A stretch of 64,000 nucleotides of DNA from positions 61,710 to 125,709 of the IMG/VR virus record IMGVR_UViG_3300015368_000213. One strand, given 5' to 3'. This document shows positions 28,803 to 38,688 of the stretch, one piece after another. How positions within the stretch are numbered: position 1 is the stretch's first letter; the number at the start of each line of letters is the position of its first letter. A program made the translations under genes and the position numbers. Origin of the DNA: a virus. The notes under the pieces are model-generated. The model had not been told where the DNA came from. It did not search any database and saw nothing but the letters and a program-made list of their open reading frames with translations.

Positions 28803-30560
28803 TTAAAACTTACCAACAACTTCATCGAAGCTTACACCAGTTCTAACAGCAACGAAATTCAATTGTATGAAATTGATACTTCTAGCTGGTTTGATATAAA
28901 TGTCACCAATAAACTCATTTCTATCAATGACTTCACCAGTGTTATTTGTTTCATCACATACAACCTTATAGTCATATATGCCACGACGACCCTTCACATC
29001 TCTCAAGAATGGTTCGACAATTGACACGAACTGTGCTCTTGTAAATTCATCATTGAATTCGAATAGGCTGGATCTTGCTGCTCTAGCAATAGCCTTTTCC
29101 AGCACAATGAACAATCTACGAACATTGATTCTGTCAAATGCCGATGGTCTTGCAAGTAATGTCTTGTCGCCATACAACATAACACCTTCTCCTGGGAAGG
29201 ATACAATTGGATTTATTCCGGTTTTGTATAGAGTGTCTCTATCTGTCTTATTTGGAACATAAGCAAGCTTAACGACATTCTTGATGTTACCACGAGTTAA
29301 ACCAGCAGGACTCCACCAAGGATCACGTTCAGCATCTGTACGAACACACAAGCCAGCAATATCACCATTTGATGGTATCCAACGATATACATCATTATAC
29401 TTGTCGTACTGGTATTTCCAAGAGCTGTCCATAACAGCATAACTTGAACTTCTTCCTAATCCATCACGATACGAAGCAACATCTGTTGCTGGTGTTGATG
29501 TTTGGCAATTTGCTAGTGGTGGTGAAATAAATGCAACACAATCCTTTCGTGTTTCTACGATATTATCTATAACGTAACGTTGAACATTAAGCATTCCTGT
29601 TTCTGTGGTATATCCCCCAGTAAGCACTAGTGATATATCAATTTCTTCTGCATTTACAAATTTGCTGTATGAATTTATAACATTTGCGGATATAGGATTA
29701 CCATCAGTACCTCTAACAAGATCAATACTTACGGCAGGATTAGCACCGTCAATGTTTATGAAAGATTTTCCAGCAGATGCCACAGTTCCCCATGCATTTG
29801 CACCAGCATTATTAACAGTATTTACTGTGTCTGGGTGTGCTGTAGAATATATATACTTTGATTTGTTATAAATTACATCTCTATAGTAGTTAGAATTACC
29901 AAATGAATCTTTAGCATTGATTGCCTTTGATACGAAACCAAATGTTTCTAATACAGTGTTCTGTGTTCCGGTGAATGCACCATCAGCGTCAACAACAACG
30001 ATGTGTAATTCGTCATTGGCTGCACCAACAGATGCGGCATAAGATGATGTTGCTGGTGCGCTTGAGAATAGCGTATTTCCTGTCCATGTAAGGAAATCGC
30101 CAGTATTTGCGCAAATATCTACTCTTAGTGAATTACCTTTAGCACCAGGATATCTAGCAGCCCAAGCACCAATTGTTGTATTGGTTCCTGTGTAGTAATT
30201 GTTAAAATATTCTTGATCATTTTTAATGGATGCATTAGCTGTCTGTGCTGGGTTTGAAACAGCAGTATTTGTAGAAGAACTACCTGCTCTCACAACTCGT
30301 AGGTCATTACCATACGACAAGAAATTTGCAGCTGTGAAAAATGATATCGCATTATTCGATGAATATGCGGTATTATCTGGTGAATTTGGTTTACCGAAAA
30401 ATTCAACTAGTTTATTTTCATTGGCAATCTGCACTGGGAAATCTATAGGCCCCCATGTGAATACGCCAGCGAATGCGCCAGTGGATGTCCCAACGGCAGG
30501 AACAACGGTTGTTAAGTCAATTTCAGATGTTACAACACCTGGAGATAGTTGAAAGCCCAT
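28803..30560 (-). CDS. 18: Contractile tail sheath protein gp18
   Basis: The 585-residue sheath subunit that contracts to drive the tube through the cell envelope. The start FQLSPGVVTSEIDLTTVVP, the GAFAGVFTWGP segment and the C-terminal core (INVRRLFIVLEKAIARAARS, FEFNDEFTRAQFVSIVEPFL, VKGRRGIYDYKVVCDETNNT) are the conserved sheath elements. T4 gp18 is 659 residues; the middle variable domain is shorter here. The gp17 C-half gene lies 65 bases upstream and gp19 follows. Confidence 0.96.
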   Translation of the reverse strand: MGFQLSPGVVTSEIDLTTVVPAVGTSTGAFAGVFTWGPIDFPVQIANENKLVEFFGKPNSPDNTAYSSNNAISFFTAANFLSYGNDLRVVRAGSSSTNTAVSNPAQTANASIKNDQEYFNNYYTGTNTTIGAWAARYPGAKGNSLRVDICANTGDFLTWTGNTLFSSAPATSSYAASVGAANDELHIVVVDADGAFTGTQNTVLETFGFVSKAINAKDSFGNSNYYRDVIYNKSKYIYSTAHPDTVNTVNNAGANAWGTVASAGKSFINIDGANPAVSIDLVRGTDGNPISANVINSYSKFVNAEEIDISLVLTGGYTTETGMLNVQRYVIDNIVETRKDCVAFISPPLANCQTSTPATDVASYRDGLGRSSSYAVMDSSWKYQYDKYNDVYRWIPSNGDIAGLCVRTDAERDPWWSPAGLTRGNIKNVVKLAYVPNKTDRDTLYKTGINPIVSFPGEGVMLYGDKTLLARPSAFDRINVRRLFIVLEKAIARAARSSLFEFNDEFTRAQFVSIVEPFLRDVKGRRGIYDYKVVCDETNNTGEVIDRNEFIGDIYIKPARSINFIQLNFVAVRTGVSFDEVVGKF

Positions 30561-30605
30561 GTTTTACGCTCCTATACAATGGAGATTAAGAATATCTACT
30601 TGTAT

Positions 30606-30613
30606 TATTTAGT
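30606..30613 (-). promoter_or_regulatory. Late-promoter-like ACTAAATA before gp18
   Basis: The minus strand carries ACTAAATA in the 65-base gap between the terminase C-half gene and gp18, 46 bases before the gp18 start. The spacing is longer than for the other copies. Confidence 0.5.
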
Positions 30614-30625
30614 TTTTTATGTTTT

Positions 30626-32041
30626 TTAAGAATTATCTACGACATTCCATATCACACCATCCTCAACATAGCCATCTAATCTTGGGTCTGATGATCCATC
30701 TATAAATATGGGAGAAGGTAATGATTCATCTTCAATTTGCTGCATTCTATCTCTATATAGCTTTTCTTTCATATTGACATTGGTTAATTCCGAGAAAAAT
30801 TGCTGGTTTGTGAGCCATGCAAATAAAACTAAACACATCACGGTATCATCATTGGAACCTTCCTCCGCCTCAAAACTATTATTTTTGGATATAAAGGTTG
30901 ATAGTTCTGCGATAGTATCAAAATCAGTTATCAATAATTTCTGATCTTCTATTAAGTTCTTTAGGATAGAGCATCCAAGGCGTTTAACGGATTTGGTTGT
31001 CCTGATCCCACGGAATGATTTATTACCATATCCCCACGTAACAGATATCTTTTTTTGTATTTCTACTGTGGATAATATGTTCTCATAATCATATTCATCA
31101 AATAATATATCAATCACTTGTTGCCCATTATCATTAATTTCACCCAGAACATATGCTTGATTATAATAATCACACATCTTCTTAATTACAGCAGGATATA
31201 CCATGGGACTCATTTCATTATCCCTGAAAGTAGCCACTAGTTTATATGGTATCTCTGTGCAGTCTATTAGACTTATTGCATGATAATCCAACCCCTTTCC
31301 TCTGGATGTATCCACAACAGCAACATAATTATGTCCTTTTACTGGATTTTCGTATATTTTTATTCCATTGTCTGATAAGTGTATTGGTTTGACGAATGCC
31401 AGAGACTTTAGTGCTCTTGCAGATATTAATGTGCCAACACTTCCCATGAATTCAACTTCAACTTCCTGTAGATATTGTTGTTCTCCCAATGCAGCTCTTT
31501 GTTCATCCGCCCATTTTTGGGTTCTGCCGGGCACATCACTCCAATGCACGGAAATAGGCGTAAACCCATTAATACCCTCAACTGCTTCTGTCCACCTCTT
31601 GTAGAAATGGTTCATACCACACGGGGTTGATGTGATAATAATCTTTGTCGTTTCACCAGATGATATTGTCGGATATACGGATGTAAAGAATTCATCTGCT
31701 AAATTAGTAGGCACGAATGCAAATTCATCAAGATATAGGCAGTTATGTGATACTATACCGTTAGAAACATATGAGTGTGTATCTTCGACATTTAGGAAAT
31801 CGTATACTGGCTCTGGATCGATTTCTGTTATTGATTTTATCTGTTTACCACCATATACATATTCGTCGGATTCCAAAAATCCTGCTTCAATATATTCTCC
31901 ATATGCATCCATTATAAGATGTTCTGGAGTACAACAAATACACTCTCCGCAGTAAAAATCTATTCTTATTAGTGTCTGTGGGATTCCTCTGGAGAGAATA
32001 CCATCAAATGATTTGAACCCTTGCTCTGTTAATATTTTCAT
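30626..32041 (-). CDS. 17: Split-intein C-half fused to the C-terminal part of terminase gp17
   Basis: A 471-residue protein. Residues 1-100 are the C-half of an atypically split intein: ILTEQGFKSFDGI, a block-B-like CCTPEHLIM, then YDFLNVEDTHSYVSNGIVSHN with the final Asn100. Cys101 is the first C-extein residue. From there it is terminase gp17: Walker B LYLDEFAFVP, the coupling segment IITSTPCG, then the nuclease domain with VAVVDTSRGKG, LGEINDNGQQV and a late acidic NDDTVMCLVLFAW. The start ATG overlaps the stop of the preceding half gene (ATGA). Protein trans-splicing with the other half would restore the packaging motor. The intein half resembles AceL-TerL, a known split terminase intein. 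Confidence 0.9.
   Translation of the reverse strand: MKILTEQGFKSFDGILSRGIPQTLIRIDFYCGECICCTPEHLIMDAYGEYIEAGFLESDEYVYGGKQIKSITEIDPEPVYDFLNVEDTHSYVSNGIVSHNCLYLDEFAFVPTNLADEFFTSVYPTISSGETTKIIITSTPCGMNHFYKRWTEAVEGINGFTPISVHWSDVPGRTQKWADEQRAALGEQQYLQEVEVEFMGSVGTLISARALKSLAFVKPIHLSDNGIKIYENPVKGHNYVAVVDTSRGKGLDYHAISLIDCTEIPYKLVATFRDNEMSPMVYPAVIKKMCDYYNQAYVLGEINDNGQQVIDILFDEYDYENILSTVEIQKKISVTWGYGNKSFRGIRTTKSVKRLGCSILKNLIEDQKLLITDFDTIAELSTFISKNNSFEAEEGSNDDTVMCLVLFAWLTNQQFFSELTNVNMKEKLYRDRMQQIEDESLPSPIFIDGSSDPRLDGYVEDGVIWNVVDNS
31742..32041 (-). other. Split intein C-fragment (100 residues)
   Basis: This is the coding region of IntC, ending with HN before Cys+1. It holds block B, F and G elements, so only block A is missing, which the partner fragment at 33048 supplies. 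A C-fragment of about 100 residues with a very short N-fragment is the atypical split known from AceL-TerL (25 plus 104). Confidence 0.85.
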
Positions 32042-32928
32042 TTTGGAGCAAACCCTCTAACCCAACCATCCGGAACATCTTCAGGTTTACACATCATTTT
32101 TTCTTTCGTTTCTGCGTTATAACAATATACAAATCCTTTATTGGATGCCTGTCTACCTTTTGCTGCTGCGCTCATTTTGTTTCTGGATTCCTCTGATCGA
32201 CGCATTCCTCTATGTTTTTCCGCAGTTTTTTCTATTTTTGTTGGGTTTTTGTTTATCTTATCTATATGTTCTTTAGTTTTCTTTTTACCTGATAATGATG
32301 TGGAAATCTTTTTCTTATGGTCTTCTGACTTCGGCACACCCAAAAATCTTTGTTTTGAAATTATTTTTTGGTTACGTCTTTGATCCAATATATTAGAAAA
32401 TTTTTCTTCTGCCATTTTTTGTTTCATTTCATTACAGAAATACACATCTTTGTCTGGATTTCCTGCTAGACTTATTATCTGATTCTTTGTTAATCCGGTT
32501 GCGCGTATAGCATCCACCATACTCAAATATGATTTTCCTTCTAACATGATACCATCACCAATATGCTGCCTTGTTGATTGCACCTCTGAAATCATTTTTT
32601 TGGTTGTGTCTGTGTGCTGCTTTCCATAGAATGGATTGTTTTCACCATACATAATTCTGACGTTTCCACCAATTGCAATATTATATGTATCTTCGCGGAG
32701 AGTGAATTCTTTGGTGACAATACTTGCCTCATATTTTTCCGCTTCTTCTTTACAATCAAACACACCTAATATTTTTTTATCGAATGCGCTTATACCGTAT
32801 TTTTCAATGGCAAGTTTGATTAATTTACCAGATCCCATATATCCATCATTTATATTATTTGTCTTATGGAAACCAACATATATTTTACCATTCTTGGTAT
32901 TTGTTATTTGGTAGACTGTGTATTTCAT
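32038..32928 (-). other. GIY-YIG homing endonuclease domain fused in frame to the intein N-fragment
   Basis: Residues 637-932 of the first gp17 half gene. The nuclease core reads VYQITNTKNGKIYVGFHKT, then GYMGSGKLI, a FDKKILGVF strand and the Glu-bearing helix (EEAEKYEASIV). NUMOD3-type DNA-binding repeats follow (GENNPFYGKQHTDTT), then an HTH-like IRATGLTKNQIISLAG and further basic repeats. Met637 (ATG at 32928) has a weak AGGGA ten bases upstream, so independent initiation is possible. A stop codon between intein fragment and endonuclease is absent. Confidence 0.85.
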
Positions 32929-34836
32929 ATCAGATTGTTCCCTAGAGCATACTTCGGTGAGTTTGCTTTTATTTAGGATATTTGATATCTCTGTGTAATA
33001 ATATGCATCACTATACTCAATACATACTTTAGTGTCGTCCGTAACGCAGTTTATACTGAATCCTCTGATCGCACTCGATGTTGTTGATGTTGCGATTATC
33101 TGGCATTTATTTTCTAATTCAATATTACCTTTATTCCAAACCACTACACCCTGCTGCATCCACATTGGTAGTGATTCGTATGATCTTTTGATTCTATCCA
33201 GAATTTCTCTTGCAGTTGCTGCTTTATGTGCTAATAGAGCAACAGTTTTTTCTTCATTAAATAATACATACCACAAGAAATACCCAACTAATGTGGAAGT
33301 ATTATGGGATAATATTCCATCCGTATATAATCTATGATCATTAGAAGCAACAGTCAGGTCATACATATTTGAGCTGTTTGTGGTTTCTATTACATCAACC
33401 ACCAAATCAACCCCATCCTCTGTTAATATTTTACTGTGATTTGGTATTAAATTTTTAGTGAATACTTGATTGTAATTGGAATCAAAAACAATATGATCAT
33501 CTGCGCATATTAATGATTTACCGCTTTTAGTTTTAATTATCCATTCTTTATACTTAATGGTTTTGTGTATATGTGTGATTGGCACCCAACCAGTATCAGA
33601 TAATACTTCCCAATTTTTAACTCCAAATGAATTGATAAATTTTCTTTCTACGTTGTTAGAAAGATCAGGCATTCGTCCAGTGCTTGTTTTCTGTTTGCTT
33701 TGAAATTTATCTCTCTTATTCTCAAGACTTGATAACCATCCACCATCAAGGAATGATCTCTGGCATGTTCTTTCATTTGATTCGACGGACGCATGTGGTG
33801 CCAATATTCTCCATCGAATTCTATTATTTTTTTCTTGTTTATATCTATGAAATCTGGAAGTATAGTTTTCCCATTCGAAAGCGTCAGACGATATTCTTTG
33901 TTCTGATAATTGATCATATCTTCCCTCTCCCATGTGGCAAAATATACCATCTCTGAATGATAATGTTCCATTATATCCTTGAATAATATTTGGGATATTT
34001 TGGAATAATTTTGCTTTTTGAAATTCTTCGACCATCTTTTCTGTCGATCCGACCAGATCTCTTTCCCAATCTCTTCCCCATATTTCTCTATGCATATTTC
34101 CAGCGAAAACGTAGTCTGTCTGTCTGATAGAAGCTGTTTTGCAAGAGTCTCGTCCCCATTCGCTTTCTTCATCCAATATTCCAGAGTGGTTGTTGAGTTT
34201 CCATTTTTCCTTCTGGTATTTGCTACTTTTTTGTGTATTTCCGTATCTATTGTACCCACAAATTTTTTGGAGAATGGTGAATACTTCCCTCCATGTTGAT
34301 ATGCTGGATTCTTTTCTCCCTTGAATCTTTCCGAATATTGGTTCATCAAATATTCGGACACTAGTTGGCTGTTTGGATGTTGTGTTTTGTATTCTTCTGT
34401 TGTTATCTTGTGTGTATTCCTTAAATGGGAATTCAATTGTTTCATCTTCTTTCCGCACATCAGACATTCTACTAAGGTGTTCATAAAAATCTCCTATTGT
34501 GATTTCATATATTTTATTGGTGATATTATTCTTCACCTTTACCTTAGTATTTATAAAAAAACATTTTCCAACTTGTCTTCCCGCCTTTATTATTATCCTG
34601 CGTTCTTTTTCTATAGTATCAATTGCATCTTTCTGGAAAGGATATAACTCAATATTGACATATCCTCTATCCAGAGTGATCATTTTTACATATTTTTCAA
34701 TAAAATAATGAGGGTCTTGTGAGCATCTGGCATATTCCAAAACCTGATCTTCAGTCATTGGTATATTTACACCATCCCTCTTTAGGCGTGGATTACCAAG
34801 ATAATGTTTAATTGCTGTTTTTATTTCTGGTATCAT
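32038..34836 (-). CDS. 17: Terminase gp17 N-terminal part with cis-intein, split-intein N-half and fused GIY-YIG endonuclease
   Basis: A 932-residue composite. Residues 1-91 are the start of the packaging ATPase up to the P-loop (AGRQVGK). Residues 92-512 are intein 1 (Cys92 to HN at 511-512). Residues 513-596 resume the terminase (TSTLVGYFLWYVLF to SAIRGFSIN). Residues 597-636 are the N-half of a split intein (CVTDDTKV...). From Met637 a GIY-YIG endonuclease runs to the stop. Joined by splicing, 91 + 84 + 371 residues give a 546-residue gp17 (T4: 610). Both catalytic ATP motifs are broken by inteins. The start overlaps the gp16 stop (ATGA). Confidence 0.9.
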   Translation of the reverse strand: MIPEIKTAIKHYLGNPRLKRDGVNIPMTEDQVLEYARCSQDPHYFIEKYVKMITLDRGYVNIELYPFQKDAIDTIEKERRIIIKAGRQVGKCFFINTKVKVKNNITNKIYEITIGDFYEHLSRMSDVRKEDETIEFPFKEYTQDNNRRIQNTTSKQPTSVRIFDEPIFGKIQGRKESSISTWREVFTILQKICGYNRYGNTQKSSKYQKEKWKLNNHSGILDEESEWGRDSCKTASIRQTDYVFAGNMHREIWGRDWERDLVGSTEKMVEEFQKAKLFQNIPNIIQGYNGTLSFRDGIFCHMGEGRYDQLSEQRISSDAFEWENYTSRFHRYKQEKNNRIRWRILAPHASVESNERTCQRSFLDGGWLSSLENKRDKFQSKQKTSTGRMPDLSNNVERKFINSFGVKNWEVLSDTGWVPITHIHKTIKYKEWIIKTKSGKSLICADDHIVFDSNYNQVFTKNLIPNHSKILTEDGVDLVVDVIETTNSSNMYDLTVASNDHRLYTDGILSHNTSTLVGYFLWYVLFNEEKTVALLAHKAATAREILDRIKRSYESLPMWMQQGVVVWNKGNIELENKCQIIATSTTSSAIRGFSINCVTDDTKVCIEYSDAYYYTEISNILNKSKLTEVCSREQSDMKYTVYQITNTKNGKIYVGFHKTNNINDGYMGSGKLIKLAIEKYGISAFDKKILGVFDCKEEAEKYEASIVTKEFTLREDTYNIAIGGNVRIMYGENNPFYGKQHTDTTKKMISEVQSTRQHIGDGIMLEGKSYLSMVDAIRATGLTKNQIISLAGNPDKDVYFCNEMKQKMAEEKFSNILDQRRNQKIISKQRFLGVPKSEDHKKKISTSLSGKKKTKEHIDKINKNPTKIEKTAEKHRGMRRSEESRNKMSAAAKGRQASNKGFVYCYNAETKEKMMCKPEDVPDGWVRGFAPK
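32929..33048 (-). other. Split intein N-fragment (about 40 residues or fewer)
   Basis: Cys597 of the first half gene starts block A (CVTDDTKVCIEYSD); the fragment likely ends after YYYTEISNILN. It follows SAIRGFSIN and is completed by the C-fragment at 31742-32041, so the insertion lies directly before Walker B. Confidence 0.82.
33648..34484 (-). CDS. Vsr-like (EDxHD-type) homing endonuclease gene overlapping intein 1 out of frame
   Basis: A 278-residue protein encoded inside intein 1 in a different minus-strand frame. It opens with a zinc finger (CLMCGKKMKQLNSHLRNTH, C2H2 type), then a DNA-binding middle (FKGEKNPAYQHGGKYSPFSKKF), and ends with a Vsr-like nuclease domain: ILPDFIDINKKKIIEFDGEYWHH, then GYQVLRIREIN. 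This family was described between split-intein halves in viral metagenomes. Expression signals are strong: AGGAG lies six bases before the ATG and a TATAAATA late-promoter match lies at 34548-34555. Both frames remain open over the full 837 bases. Confidence 0.87.
   Translation of the reverse strand: MNTLVECLMCGKKMKQLNSHLRNTHKITTEEYKTQHPNSQLVSEYLMNQYSERFKGEKNPAYQHGGKYSPFSKKFVGTIDTEIHKKVANTRRKNGNSTTTLEYWMKKANGDETLAKQLLSDRQTTFSLEICIEKYGEEIGKEIWSDRQKRWSKNFKKQNYSKISQILFKDIMEHYHSEMVYFATWEREDMINYQNKEYRLTLSNGKTILPDFIDINKKKIIEFDGEYWHHMRPSNQMKEHARDHSLMVDGYQVLRIREINFKANRKQALDECLIFLTT
34548..34555 (-). promoter_or_regulatory. Exact TATAAATA inside intein 1, upstream of the overlapping endonuclease gene
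   Basis: The minus strand carries TATAAATA within the first intein codons (encoding part of FINT), 64 bases before the endonuclease start. With the good ribosome binding site it would give independent late expression. It could be a coincidence of coding sequence. Confidence 0.5.
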
Positions 34837-35282
34837 GTTTTGTTACGAATGGCTTTAAGCAAATCTGCTGTAGTGCCCACAAATACGGCTTTGTCTACGT
34901 TTATGTTTGTATTTGTGTTACCATTTTCGTTCGTGTCCTTTGTTTTTGATAATAGATCACTTTTATCTTTTTGTATTTTGAGTAGTTTATCTACATTTTC
35001 TGCTTGAGTTTTTAATAGTGTCGCTATAACCTCATATGCTCTTGGATGCTGTGTATCCCTAGCAATCATAGATAGTTCCGTTATTGCAGCATTGCCGTGA
35101 TTGATGATGTTGTATATTTCTGATCTTGCGCTATCAGCATCGGTTTCTACATTATTAACATCATTTGTAGCAACGACTGTTTCTGTGGTGGCTATTTTTG
35201 TGTTTGAAGTAATTTCTGTGTATTCAGCCGTTATTGGAGCTGTGCCCAGTATACTAGATAAGTTTTTATCAAAGTCACTCAT
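34833..35282 (-). CDS. 16: Small terminase subunit gp16
   Basis: A 149-residue protein that recognises DNA and stimulates the gp17 motor. The central helix pair (IARDTQHPRAYEVIATLLKTQAEN, followed by a long KLLKIQKDK helix) matches T4 gp16 ([21 protein letters not shown]), and the later AVFVGTTADLLKAI fits T4 ATVFMGSPTELMDEI. The N-terminal 45 residues are polar and variable. Its stop overlaps the gp17 start and it follows gp15 in transcription by a few bases, the standard order. Confidence 0.9.
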   Translation of the reverse strand: MSDFDKNLSSILGTAPITAEYTEITSNTKIATTETVVATNDVNNVETDADSARSEIYNIINHGNAAITELSMIARDTQHPRAYEVIATLLKTQAENVDKLLKIQKDKSDLLSKTKDTNENGNTNTNINVDKAVFVGTTADLLKAIRNKT

Positions 35283-35290
35283 TTTAATAC

Positions 35291-36283
35291 CTAAATTGTT
35301 TCTATTATTGTCGTTGTGAATCCATAGTCATCATCCACATTTGCTGTTGGTGGATTTGGGGTTACTGTTATATTATCTAGCTGATGATTATCATTAACTA
35401 TTCGTGTGATATTCCATGTTGCGCCACTTACTGCACCATGTAATGATTTATTGTTATATAAAACACCATTCGTATCCACTATGGTTAGTGTATTTGATGT
35501 ATTATCCCATGACTCAACATATGCCGTAGCATTTGATCTCCCTATGGATGATCCCTCATATACTAATTCACCTATCTTATATCCAACACTACCACCATCA
35601 AGATTTAATATTTTTGTTCCTGTGGCATCTGTGTTATAGTAAAATGTATTAGCAGTTGCTTTATGTATTATTTTTGCTTCGTTTGTTGGTCCGTACAAAT
35701 ATCCTTGCATGGTAAATTGTAGAGTCCAAGTTAATACTCGAAGACTATCAGCTGATCCTTCATCCTGAACATCTTGGCTGACGGAATTTAATATCAATGG
35801 AAGATCATCCTCAACATCAGGTAATCCTAAAAGACTTGCCTTCAGTGTATAATCTGGGGAAAAATACGGAAGAATCTGCTCAACTATTTGTGTACCATCT
35901 TCCACATTCCTCACATATATGTTTAACGTAAAATTAAATGTGTATGGTGTTCTTTTTACTGTAACAACAGAACCAGTATCATTGTTATATGAGAATTCTG
36001 TGTTATATATCGATCTCTTTCTTACTGGATCATATATTATGGAATCCAATTCAAATCCCATTCTGGGTAAATTTACCTCAGTCTGTTTGAATAATTCTGG
36101 ATCTTGTGTGATTCTTTTATAGAATTTTTCTTTGTTTATATATGATAATGGAACAGTTATGCGTTCTATTTCAAATGTTCCGGTTTTGTCATGGCGCACA
36201 AGTCTAATATTATTAAACATTGTTCCGAATGCAACAACCATTTTCCTGATTGTTCTATGATAGAAATGTTGATTAGATAACAT
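35291..36283 (-). CDS. 15: Tail completion / sheath terminator protein gp15
   Basis: A 330-residue protein that caps the tail and joins it to the neck. The start MLSNQHFYHRTIRKMVVAFG, FNNIRLVRHD, the ITVPLSYINKEKFYKRI strand and LPRMGFELDSIIYD match T4 gp15 (LMGDLFSNIQIKR, IRVPITYASKEHF, LPRINLHLVDFSY). The C-terminal ~100 residues include an inserted strand-rich domain similar in wording to the C-terminal part of gp14 here (YEGSSIGRSNATAYVESWD versus YQGDSLDTATARGVVASWN). The ATG at 36283 overlaps the stop of the GIY-YIG gene (TGATG); a longer open frame upstream is not used. Confidence 0.88.
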   Translation of the reverse strand: MLSNQHFYHRTIRKMVVAFGTMFNNIRLVRHDKTGTFEIERITVPLSYINKEKFYKRITQDPELFKQTEVNLPRMGFELDSIIYDPVRKRSIYNTEFSYNNDTGSVVTVKRTPYTFNFTLNIYVRNVEDGTQIVEQILPYFSPDYTLKASLLGLPDVEDDLPLILNSVSQDVQDEGSADSLRVLTWTLQFTMQGYLYGPTNEAKIIHKATANTFYYNTDATGTKILNLDGGSVGYKIGELVYEGSSIGRSNATAYVESWDNTSNTLTIVDTNGVLYNNKSLHGAVSGATWNITRIVNDNHQLDNITVTPNPPTANVDDDYGFTTTIIETI

Positions 36284-36954
36284 CAGATTTGTTCTCTGAA
36301 AAATATTCTTCGTCCAGTTTCTGGGCAAATTCTCCAACGTCTACCAATTGTAGCATCACTCATCCTTTGCTTTTGTTCCATAGTTCTTTTATGTGATCTA
36401 TCTCTATTGGTCTTTGCTCGTCTTTTAACTTCTTCTGTTGTGGGAAAGTGTCTTTTTTCGATGGGAATAACTCGCCCCCTAGCTTTCTCCCCAATTTTTT
36501 TTCTTGTATCATCGGAGATGGTTTTGCCTTTATGTGCTATAGAAATTTTATTTTTAGCTTCTTCGGTATGATGCTTTCCCCACATTGGATTCAAACTGCC
36601 TCTTTGTTTTTCAGACATTAAATGTAAAGTTTCCGGTGTGTGTTTTTTCCCATGCATTGGTGGTACAGACTTCCCATAATTTAGATTCAACCAATCATCT
36701 TTTTCCACAACTCTAAGTTTATATAAAACCCTAGATTCCCAGTCTCTGGCATCTTTGGTCGTATCAAAAACTCTTCTGACCTCATAAAAAAAAGAATTCA
36801 CCCCATATTCGGCTATCAATCTCTTAACCTCTTTGGAGGATGAAAAATATTTATTCCAGAGATCATCCGGATGACAATCCAATTTGTATCTAACTCCATA
36901 ATATTTTTTGCCGGTGGGTTTGTGATAAAGATAATATGTAAATGGTATGGTCAT
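36283..36954 (-). CDS. GIY-YIG homing endonuclease between gp14 and gp15
   Basis: A 223-residue free-standing homing endonuclease. The core reads YYLYHKPTGKKYYGVRYK, then LWNKYFSSSKEVKRLI and FDTTKDARDWESRVL with a catalytic Glu. NUMOD3-type repeats follow (HGKKHTPETLHLMSEKQ, NPMWGKHHTEEAKNKIS) and a basic tail. The ATG at 36954 is chosen because TTGGAG precedes it by six bases; the longer frame begins with a TTG inside that site. A late-promoter-like ACTAAATA lies 25 bases upstream. The stop overlaps the gp15 start. Confidence 0.88.
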   Translation of the reverse strand: MTIPFTYYLYHKPTGKKYYGVRYKLDCHPDDLWNKYFSSSKEVKRLIAEYGVNSFFYEVRRVFDTTKDARDWESRVLYKLRVVEKDDWLNLNYGKSVPPMHGKKHTPETLHLMSEKQRGSLNPMWGKHHTEEAKNKISIAHKGKTISDDTRKKIGEKARGRVIPIEKRHFPTTEEVKRRAKTNRDRSHKRTMEQKQRMSDATIGRRWRICPETGRRIFFREQI

Positions 36955-36978
36955 TATATTCTCCAAGTTCGATATTAC

Positions 36979-36986
36979 TATTTAGT
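36979..36986 (-). promoter_or_regulatory. Late-promoter-like ACTAAATA before the GIY-YIG gene
   Basis: The minus strand carries ACTAAATA 25 bases before the endonuclease ATG at 36954, inside a short palindrome (ATTACT/AGTAAT arms). Confidence 0.5.
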
Positions 36987-37018
36987 AATTTTCGATTTTA
37001 GAGAATAGCATCACTTAA

Positions 37019-37924
37019 TCAATTTACCTCCCCGAACGGGTTATGCTCTGTGAAATCTAGGAAATTACCTGCTTCTATTTCTAATCTAGTGTTATCGTCG
37101 AGATTTTCCGTATTTGCATTCGTTATTGTTATTGATTCTGGTAATGTCCAGACTGCCCCACTTGAGTAGCCTTTTATATCAACACCAACAGCAAAATCAC
37201 CTTTGATATTTCTCAGTTTCAATTTTCTATCCGGTCTATTCCAAGAAGCAACAACACCTCGTGCCGTTGCTGTATCTAAAGAGTCACCCTGATACACCCA
37301 TTCATATTTTTGATATGTCCCAATCCCACCAGTATTTAGGATATGCTCCAAACTAAATCCTTGAACATCACCAATTCTATCAATTATCTCCACACCAGTA
37401 GTGAATAATTCTCCATTATATTTAAATGCTTCAAGTGAGAGAGAGTACATATATGGATTAGTTGAATCTCTTCCTAACTGGAAAAAGTTCTTTTCCTGTT
37501 CGACAAATTTAATTTCCATTAATTTATATTGTACTGGTAAATAAACCAAATCTCCTTCTTTTGGAACATGTCTCTCTGGTATGTTTTTATCTAGTTGTGC
37601 TGTGGTATTTTTCCACACAACCTTTTCAAAAGTTCGTCTAGCCATAACAACTGTGGCAGAATCTTGTATCTCTAATCCAAACTTGGAAAAAAATTCATGG
37701 TTGCCTGTGTATTCCTTGGTGGATTCAAGATACATATCTATCTTGAATGCTTTAGAAAAACATTTAACGGGATCATCACCAAACAACTCATCTGTGGAAG
37801 ATTGGGAATCCCTTGGAATATAATATACACTGATGCCATGATTCTTTATGGATTCAAGAATCATATCTTCAAGTAAAAACTGTTCACTTGTTGCATTTTG
37901 GTTATTAAAATATACGCTTGTCAT
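37019..37924 (-). CDS. 14: Neck protein gp14
   Basis: A 301-residue head completion/neck protein needed to join heads and tails. Recognisable family stretches are NNQNATSEQFLLEDMILESIKNHGI, VYYIPRD near the N-terminus, FKIDMYLESTKEYTG, FFSKFGLEIQDSATVVMARRTFE, and GDLVYLPVQYKLMEIKFVE. T4 gp14 is 256 residues; the extra ~60 residues near the C-terminus form a strand-rich domain like that in gp15 here. It starts five bases after gp13. Confidence 0.92.
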   Translation of the reverse strand: MTSVYFNNQNATSEQFLLEDMILESIKNHGISVYYIPRDSQSSTDELFGDDPVKCFSKAFKIDMYLESTKEYTGNHEFFSKFGLEIQDSATVVMARRTFEKVVWKNTTAQLDKNIPERHVPKEGDLVYLPVQYKLMEIKFVEQEKNFFQLGRDSTNPYMYSLSLEAFKYNGELFTTGVEIIDRIGDVQGFSLEHILNTGGIGTYQKYEWVYQGDSLDTATARGVVASWNRPDRKLKLRNIKGDFAVGVDIKGYSSGAVWTLPESITITNANTENLDDNTRLEIEAGNFLDFTEHNPFGEVN

Positions 37925-37929
37925 TTATA

Positions 37930-38688
37930 TTATCCAATCAAGAATGGTACTGGCTCTTCGTAAGTGTCGCGTAATTTCTGTTCTAATCTGGCAATTTCGG
38001 CATCTGCATCCGCATATATCTTCTCACCATTTATAATCATCCCACCCGGAAGAACATAACCACCATATTTGGTTAGATTTGATCCCCATTGTTTCTTTAT
38101 TAGTTGTGTGGTGTATTCCTTTAACCATATATCATTATATACACTATAATAATAATCCGGATCAATAATTCTTCTCGCCTCAACCACGATATAATCACCC
38201 ACATTCACTTTTGCTTGCCAATTCATTGCAATATATAATATGTTGGTGGTTTTATTGTATGTGAATGGTACTCTACCAGTTACGATCATATCCAACATTG
38301 CTAGATGTTCACGGGCAATAACGTAATACGTATATGAGCTGGATGTTAGATTGTAGAAGTCATTAAGTCTCAGTTGGTAATTGATATCAAACATATTAAA
38401 ACCACCAGCAGTAGTGGATGTCTGCTGTCCGGTCATTGGTAGTATGTTGTTAACTGATATAATATTATCAGACAATTCTATTTGCTGATTATCAATATGA
38501 TATTGTGTAACTTGTAAACCCAGCCAAGTCATTTCTGTACCATCATAATGATACTGCTGGAATAACTGCATGGCATCATCAATGCGATCTTCTACCTGAT
38601 CATCATCGACATTTATGTCAATAACAGGAAATCCCAGCTTTCGTAGGCAATAATCCTTTAATTCTTGTCTTGATGTTGGTTGTGCCAT
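37930..38688 (-). CDS. 13: Neck protein gp13
   Basis: A 252-residue neck protein that acts with gp14 to close the filled head. Family features are SRQELKDYCLRKLGFPVIDINVDDDQVEDRIDDA in pieces at the N-terminus, LFQQYHYDG, and the C-terminal LKEYTTQLIKKQWGSNLTKY with LPGGMIINGEKIYADA. T4 gp13 is 309 residues. A late-promoter-like site lies 26 bases upstream and gp14 follows closely. Confidence 0.93.
   Translation of the reverse strand: MAQPTSRQELKDYCLRKLGFPVIDINVDDDQVEDRIDDAMQLFQQYHYDGTEMTWLGLQVTQYHIDNQQIELSDNIISVNNILPMTGQQTSTTAGGFNMFDINYQLRLNDFYNLTSSSYTYYVIAREHLAMLDMIVTGRVPFTYNKTTNILYIAMNWQAKVNVGDYIVVEARRIIDPDYYYSVYNDIWLKEYTTQLIKKQWGSNLTKYGGYVLPGGMIINGEKIYADADAEIARLEQKLRDTYEEPVPFLIG

Follow-up and report, generated by a model that had tools for sequence, protein, structure and literature searches.

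A large-terminase gene in the IMG/VR virus record IMGVR_UViG_3300015368_000213 very probably contains a contiguous mobile intein, likely to splice in cis, that carries its own homing endonuclease in the +1 reading frame. The stretch analysed, called the window here, comprises 64,000 nucleotides of this record, and the features of the locus all lie on its minus strand. The T4-type large terminase (TerL, gp17) is encoded as two open reading frames (ORFs; 34836–32038, 932 residues, and 32041–30626, 471 residues). The first of these contains intein 1, which spans residues Cys92–Asn512 (421 residues, 34563–33301) and directly follows the Walker A stretch AGRQVGK. A sequence-only reading of the window had proposed that a 278-codon gene for a Vsr-like endonuclease lies within this intein in another frame, and the ORF coordinates bear this out. 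Open frames, avoidance of stops, the selection pattern, recurrence in other lineages, the homing footprint and in-frame deletions of the homing endonuclease gene (HEG) were all computed directly.

The HEG starts one base inside an intein codon (TAT GAA, read as T ATG AA), which puts it in the +1 frame relative to the intein. Its AGGAG site is dual-coding, as had been noticed from the sequence: the stretch from AGGAG (34495–34491) to the ATG at 34484 encodes IGDFYE of the intein. Over the 278 HEG codons the third frame contains 29 stops and the intein frame none, confirming the earlier observation that the latter is open across all 837 bases, and permutation excludes chance as the cause. When the synonymous codons of the HEG were permuted, the intein frame acquired 14.2 stops on average and never fewer than 7 in 5,000 trials; when codons were drawn from the usage of the window, the mean was 29.7 and the minimum 16. 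The longest out-of-frame open run in the other large ORFs of the window is 112 codons. A second IMG/VR contig, IMGVR_UViG_3300014904_000032 (L001), possibly from the same source as the window, has the identical 1263 nt, which makes an isolated sequencing error improbable.

Searching IMG/VR with the nuclease yielded several hundred relatives, the best of which we fetched for analysis (loci designated L). Loci that match the nuclease in full fall into two groups, with either no stop in the intein-equivalent frame or at least nine and mostly tens. Zero-stop loci are the window (equal to L001/L006), L087–L092, L150/L151/L155, L013, L118 (partial), L002, L007/L008, L010, L027 and L164. We count these as ten overlapping lineages, the tenth being the partial L118; the frame is thus open throughout, the conserved openness that the sequence-only reading had named as a sign of selection. 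The HEG lies in the same frame in all ten, at about 40–60% identity to that of the window, and a Shine-Dalgarno-like sequence precedes it in most of the others too. In the complete cases a single ORF runs from TerL into the N-terminal splicing part (IntN), over the HEG, through the C-terminal splicing part (IntC) and back into TerL; the TerL ORF is complete in L002, L013 and L027. The other relatives are mostly fractured in the classic way, with an N-half gene that stops close to the start of a separate HEG and a C-half that begins at an ATG of its own. Intein halves in separate genes around a free-standing HEG, the hallmark of a split intein, are found neither in the window nor in the other overlapping lineages. 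Cellular genomes contained only two HEG relatives, neither of them overlapping, and cultured phages only three records with one; the overlapping arrangement was not seen in any cultured case.

The two classes differ sharply at the codon junctions of the HEG. An intein-frame stop requires a codon ending in T before AA, AG or GA, and in the window HEG T occupies 0 of 99 such at-risk junctions versus 59 of the 178 others. Across the nine complete overlapping lineages, to which this count was confined, the figures are 0 of 912 versus 629 of 1726 (36%), and fractured relatives have T at 1858 of 4926 equivalent at-risk junctions (37.7%).

In the closer fractured relatives both intein halves share one frame relative to the HEG, so fusion of the fractured form needs loss of stops only. 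The exact same layout, together with the ATG that the window retains at the C-half position, would also suit a locus that is still functionally fractured, in which three starts yield N-half, endonuclease and C-half, the two halves splice in trans and the open frame adds nothing. We consider this improbable, as it leaves the absence of T from 912 junctions unexplained and the HEG-deleted derivatives described below retain the joined frame. The C-half start argues in the same direction. Of the 37 sequences that upstream openness assigns to the fractured class, 35 have ATG there; the overlapping L118 (GTG) falls into this class only because its contig is cut. In the overlapping lineages the slot reads ATG in the window group and L150, GTG in L007, L013 and L027, TTG in L010, TTT in L002 (with a TTG two codons upstream) and, with no start codon at all, GGT in L164. 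Such decay is the pattern expected from a relaxed need for a separate C-half.

Comparing substitutions in both frames, a check suggested by the sequence-only reading, separates constrained from free parts of the cassette. Pairs among the close relatives L088, L091 and L092 differ by 17 to 46 substitutions in the overlap, and their naive dN/dS ratio (w) is 0.12–0.15 for the HEG frame, about 0.06 for IntN and 0–0.3 for IntC. The linker, the intein-frame reading of the HEG, reaches a naive w of about 3, since it freely accepts changes that are silent in the HEG, and not one substitution creates a stop. With the HEG frame conserved and the linker frame unconstrained yet free of new stops, the linker sequence is free and its openness alone kept. 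That selection on the linker acts only by removing stop codons is strongly supported by these comparisons. So is the proposal, made from the sequence alone, that the linker stays open only to keep the intein in one chain: it is open in ten lineages with unconstrained sequence, C-half starts have been lost in some of them, and three HEG-deleted derivatives remain in frame.

A linker selected as a protein domain, or a HEG product made by frameshifting out of and back into the intein frame, is less probable still than a fractured locus. Its attraction is a recurring linker motif, ENNRIRW..LA, which is the shadow of the nuclease active site; this motif overlies the HEG core KKIIEFDG and is accounted for as its out-of-frame reading. 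The w of the linker frame and a predicted local distance difference test (pLDDT) score of around 25–30 speak against a domain, and the HEG has its own AGGAG and ATG. We ruled out a conserved linker domain on the two-frame substitutions, the HEG fourfold sites, which are saturated between distant pairs, and the predicted disorder.

The residues expected at intein ends are in place, K|C...SHN|T in the window and K|C...SHN|(T/S) in all overlapping relatives. In an AlphaFold2 (AF2) model from a six-sequence intein alignment, residues 1–34 and 305–421 are ordered, with pLDDT mostly 80–94 in IntC, and residues 35–304 fall below 50. Foldseek matched the ordered part best to VidaL (E 3.5e-8), followed by gp41-1 (2.1e-7) and the engineered Cat, all consistent with a Hint fold, and the C-terminal splicing motif is recognized by NCBIfam intein_Cterm (TIGR01443; 19.1 bits, cut-off 15.6). 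An insert tolerated without splicing is a very poor alternative, even though a nuclease out of frame in an open host frame has been published, the HNH gene hidden in the ShiLan methylase insertion (PMC11855218). In the window and its relatives Cys1 and ...HN|T/S are intact and under purifying selection, the Hint fold is confidently predicted, and the insert breaks the Walker A motif, so the ATPase would be expected to be dead if unspliced.

Metagenome assembly and AT-rich DNA would allow an artefact or a chance open frame, but at least 7 stops in every permutation, two null models, the junction count and the recurrence of the open frame in ten divergent lineages drawn from many datasets rule out chance and make this the least credible explanation. 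A group I intron was likewise discarded: Rfam gave no match in 30000–38000, and the frame is open, not interrupted.

The HEG product combines an N-terminal Ros/MucR-like zinc finger with a C-terminal DUF559/Vsr-like nuclease domain (Pfam PF05443 and PF04480, the latter at 27.5 bits versus a cut-off of 20.6); the NCBIfam vsr match is weak. Its model, of low-to-moderate confidence, resembles I-Bth0305I (Foldseek probability 0.98–0.99 with a weak E of about 0.04) and Vsr. The nuclease core K-I-E-G-Y-H is conserved in a four-sequence alignment, and KKIIE..G.YWH across the overlapping set. This Vsr/DUF559-like core places the protein with the EDxHD/Vsr-like endonucleases.

Evidence for mobility comes from L087 and L088. 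Their cassettes are identical at 1266 of 1266 nt, and their TerL sequences are only 64% (N-extein) and 68% (C-extein) identical; identity stops 3 nt before and 14 nt after the intein. Each state is present in two IMG/VR records (L087/L089 and L088/L090). An identical cassette in divergent TerL genes with junctions at the intein ends is the trace that recent homing of the overlapping cassette as a unit, with presumed cleavage by the HEG product, would leave; a chimeric assembly is the less likely source.

Most of the nuclease can also be lost. L161 carries the L087 cassette, in a TerL that is nearly identical, minus 714 nt of HEG; this deletion is in frame, and the 552 nt left show a single mismatch. 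HEG-deleted contiguous inteins with the intein frame intact also occur in L163 and L203; in L163 the 5' nuclease part matches L150 and the splicing parts match L088. Among cultured phages, contiguous mini-inteins of 159–179 residues without a HEG occupy the same site in Ackermannviridae (Salmonella phage Maynard, Vibrio phages VAP7 and Kuja, Dickeya phage LIMEstone1).

In the nuclease tree, overlapping forms require two changes among fractured relatives, or three with L164 added. The whole-HEG tree rejects one overlapping clade (approximately unbiased test, p 0.018), as does the C-terminal half of the HEG (p 0.0016); the N-terminal half does not (p 0.34), nor does the weakly resolved IntC tree (p 0.135). 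Because the two halves differ on a single clade, they have probably been exchanged, and the L027 HEG looks mosaic. A single clean origin of the overlap was rejected, as the whole-HEG and C-terminal-half trees are against it, and we claim neither one nor several origins. Change from fractured to overlapping is the favoured direction on these sequences, not a settled one, because nuclease halves recombine and intein trees are weak. The sequence-only reading had viewed the locus as a possible intermediate between contiguous and fractured inteins. As a direction this is unsupported: overlapping groups nest among fractured relatives, apparently home as they are, and decay to mini-inteins, a pattern that suggests a stable state reached by evolution and not one on the way to fracture. 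Simulation gave about 25 stops expected at the present G+C content of third codon positions (GC3) of 0.4; zero stops by GC-rich ancestry had a P of 0.008 at GC3 0.9 and 0.116 at GC3 0.95, an open frame being likely only near the last value. GC-rich ancestry is therefore a possible route to the open frame.

These data are consistent with the following model. The cassette would be a mobile intein at the TerL Walker A site (RQVGK|C) with the HEG between splicing blocks A and B. Ribosomes from the gp17 start would read through the N-extein, the 34-residue IntN, the disordered linker (~270 residues, an out-of-frame reading of the HEG), the 117-residue IntC and more extein; IntN and IntC would fold as a Hint domain and probably excise themselves in cis together with the linker. 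From the internal AGGAG/ATG, other ribosomes would produce the endonuclease of Vsr/EDxHD type; its cleavage of TerL genes that lack the intein would let the complete cassette be copied into them. Selection would maintain the nuclease protein and both splicing parts and, on the linker, just purge stops. We infer translation of the precursor, cis-splicing and DNA cleavage from the known behaviour of inteins and homing endonucleases.

Several points weigh against the contiguous cis-splicing intein. The Pfam intein model PF14890 scores under its cut-off for intein 1, every overlapping locus is an uncultivated metagenome contig, and the locus is known from DNA sequence and predicted structures alone. 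The ATG that the window keeps at the old C-half start would permit some trans-splicing from a separate C-half. Finally, some 25–30 stops would have had to disappear before read-through brought any benefit.

In the open-access literature we found no paper on an intein with a nuclease in another frame, and the architecture appears to be new, assembled from known parts. In 2009 Dassa et al. reportedly described fractured genes, in which an EDxHD (Vsr-like) endonuclease lies between split-intein halves. The nuclease family and splicing parts are the same here, and fractured relatives at the same TerL site were found; in the window, however, IntN is not followed by a stop, the C-half need not be a separate gene and the intein frame crosses the HEG. 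Canonical large inteins, with in-frame LAGLIDADG or HNH domains, likewise join a Hint domain and a mobility nuclease in one ORF, but in the window the nuclease is in the other frame, lies between blocks A and B rather than B and F, and is a separate protein. The Ackermannviridae mini-inteins (Maynard, 159 residues; VAP7, 179 residues) share the site (RQSGK|C) and a related IntC, but lack an endonuclease and have linkers of a few tens of residues or fewer.

The atypical TerL inteins AceL-TerL and GOS-TerL are split in nature and have an IntN of 25–37 residues, and Cat-TerL is engineered (PMC11766414). With these and VidaL (PDB 6vgv) the window intein shares a very short IntN, a long IntC, a terminase host and the fold. 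AceL-TerL, GOS-TerL and VidaL are split and splice in trans, whereas IntN and IntC of the window are joined by the shadow of a second gene. The closest published case is the ShiLan domain, or Pacc40 insertion, an out-of-frame HNH endonuclease in a phage methylase, which has no splicing element or recognisable ribosome-binding site and is thought to remain in the protein (PMC11855218). Both cases hide a homing nuclease in the alternative frame of a stop-free host-gene insertion; the window differs in having the splicing parts of a Hint domain, an AGGAG and a Vsr/EDxHD-like rather than an HNH nuclease.

The locus thus probably represents an undescribed class of mobile intein: contiguous, with a HEG wholly in the second frame over a disposable linker selected only to be stop-free, stably maintained in ten lineages, moving as one piece and capable of losing its nuclease and so turning into an ordinary mini-intein. 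If so, it would be a third, dual-coded architecture between inteins with an in-frame HEG domain and split inteins with a separate HEG, and a natural instance, unusually clean, of two overlapping frames of which one is selected for nothing beyond "no stop codon". A Hint domain may be able to accommodate some 270 disordered residues inserted close to its N-terminus. How naturally split inteins arose would become a testable question, because fractured, overlapping and nuclease-free forms share one site. Gene callers tend to suppress large overlapping ORFs, so similar nucleases may hide from annotation elsewhere. For engineers, the cassette would offer a natural example of a mobility gene entangled with an essential gene.

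Table 1. Layout of the terminase locus, in window coordinates.
Feature	Position	Strand	Basis
TerL (gp17) N-extein, ending ...AGRQVGK (Walker A)	34564..34836	-	PHROG terminase large subunit, same ORF
Intein 1 IntN, residues 1–34, CFFINTKV...GDFYEHL	34462..34563	-	AF2 pLDDT 88–89 (residues 1–30); conserved in relatives
AGGAG Shine-Dalgarno of the endonuclease gene, inside the IGDFYE codons of IntN	34491..34495	-	Sequence
HEG, 278 residues, +1 frame	33648..34484	-	PF05443, PF04480; purifying selection in relatives
Intein-frame linker over the HEG, ~270 codons, stop-free, predicted disordered, sequence unconstrained	33652..34461	-	
ATG at the slot where fractured relatives begin the C-half gene, kept in the window	33670..33672	-	
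Intein 1 IntC, residues 305–421, ...CADDHIVF...DHRLYTDGILSHN	33301..33651	-	AF2, NCBIfam intein_Cterm, Foldseek
TerL middle extein, T-STLVGYFLW...IRGFSIN	33049..33300	-	
Second intein, N-half fused in frame to a GIY-YIG nuclease, with a TGA stop overlapping the following ATG	32038..33048	-	
Second intein, C-half, ATG MKILTEQGF...IVSHN, opening a separate downstream gene	31742..32041	-	PF14890
TerL C-extein, C-LYLDEFAF..., nuclease domain	30626..31741	-	Pfam Terminase_6C, PHROG phrog_2

The second TerL intein is split, an overlapping ATGA joining the N-half/GIY-YIG gene (32038–33048) to the C-half gene (30626–32041), and represents yet another arrangement of HEG and intein within the same gene. 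A free-standing GIY-YIG/NUMOD3 homing endonuclease-like ORF (36283–36966, phrog_314), of the same family as the nuclease of intein 2, lies just upstream of the next structural gene and overlaps it.

Further inteins occur in the relatives. TerL of L088/L090/L163 has a contiguous mini-intein without a HEG at an additional site, QEMEC|VGED; at the equivalent site L007 and L092 finish with the N-half of an intein, and L118 does so at a different one. In L058–L085, L128 and L134 (for example L063, L059 and L077), fractured cassettes follow the Walker A lysine (GK|C) of other P-loop ATPases, which look SbcC/gp46-, DnaB- and Clp-type; this suggests that the nuclease–intein unit targets P-loop coding sequences. 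In Caulobacter phage Cr30 (L141, NC_025422) a free-standing HEG relative adjoins an intein-less TerL, whose Walker A is RQSAK instead of RQxGK, a site possibly resistant to homing. In LIMEstone1 (L222) a homing endonuclease annotated F-LimIX (1171–2055) lies directly upstream of the TerL with the HEG-less mini-intein at the same site. Dickeya phages KM209271, KM209320, KM209228 and KJ716335 have the intein portion of TerL annotated as 'pretoxin HINT domain protein', a misleading name for a terminase mini-intein.
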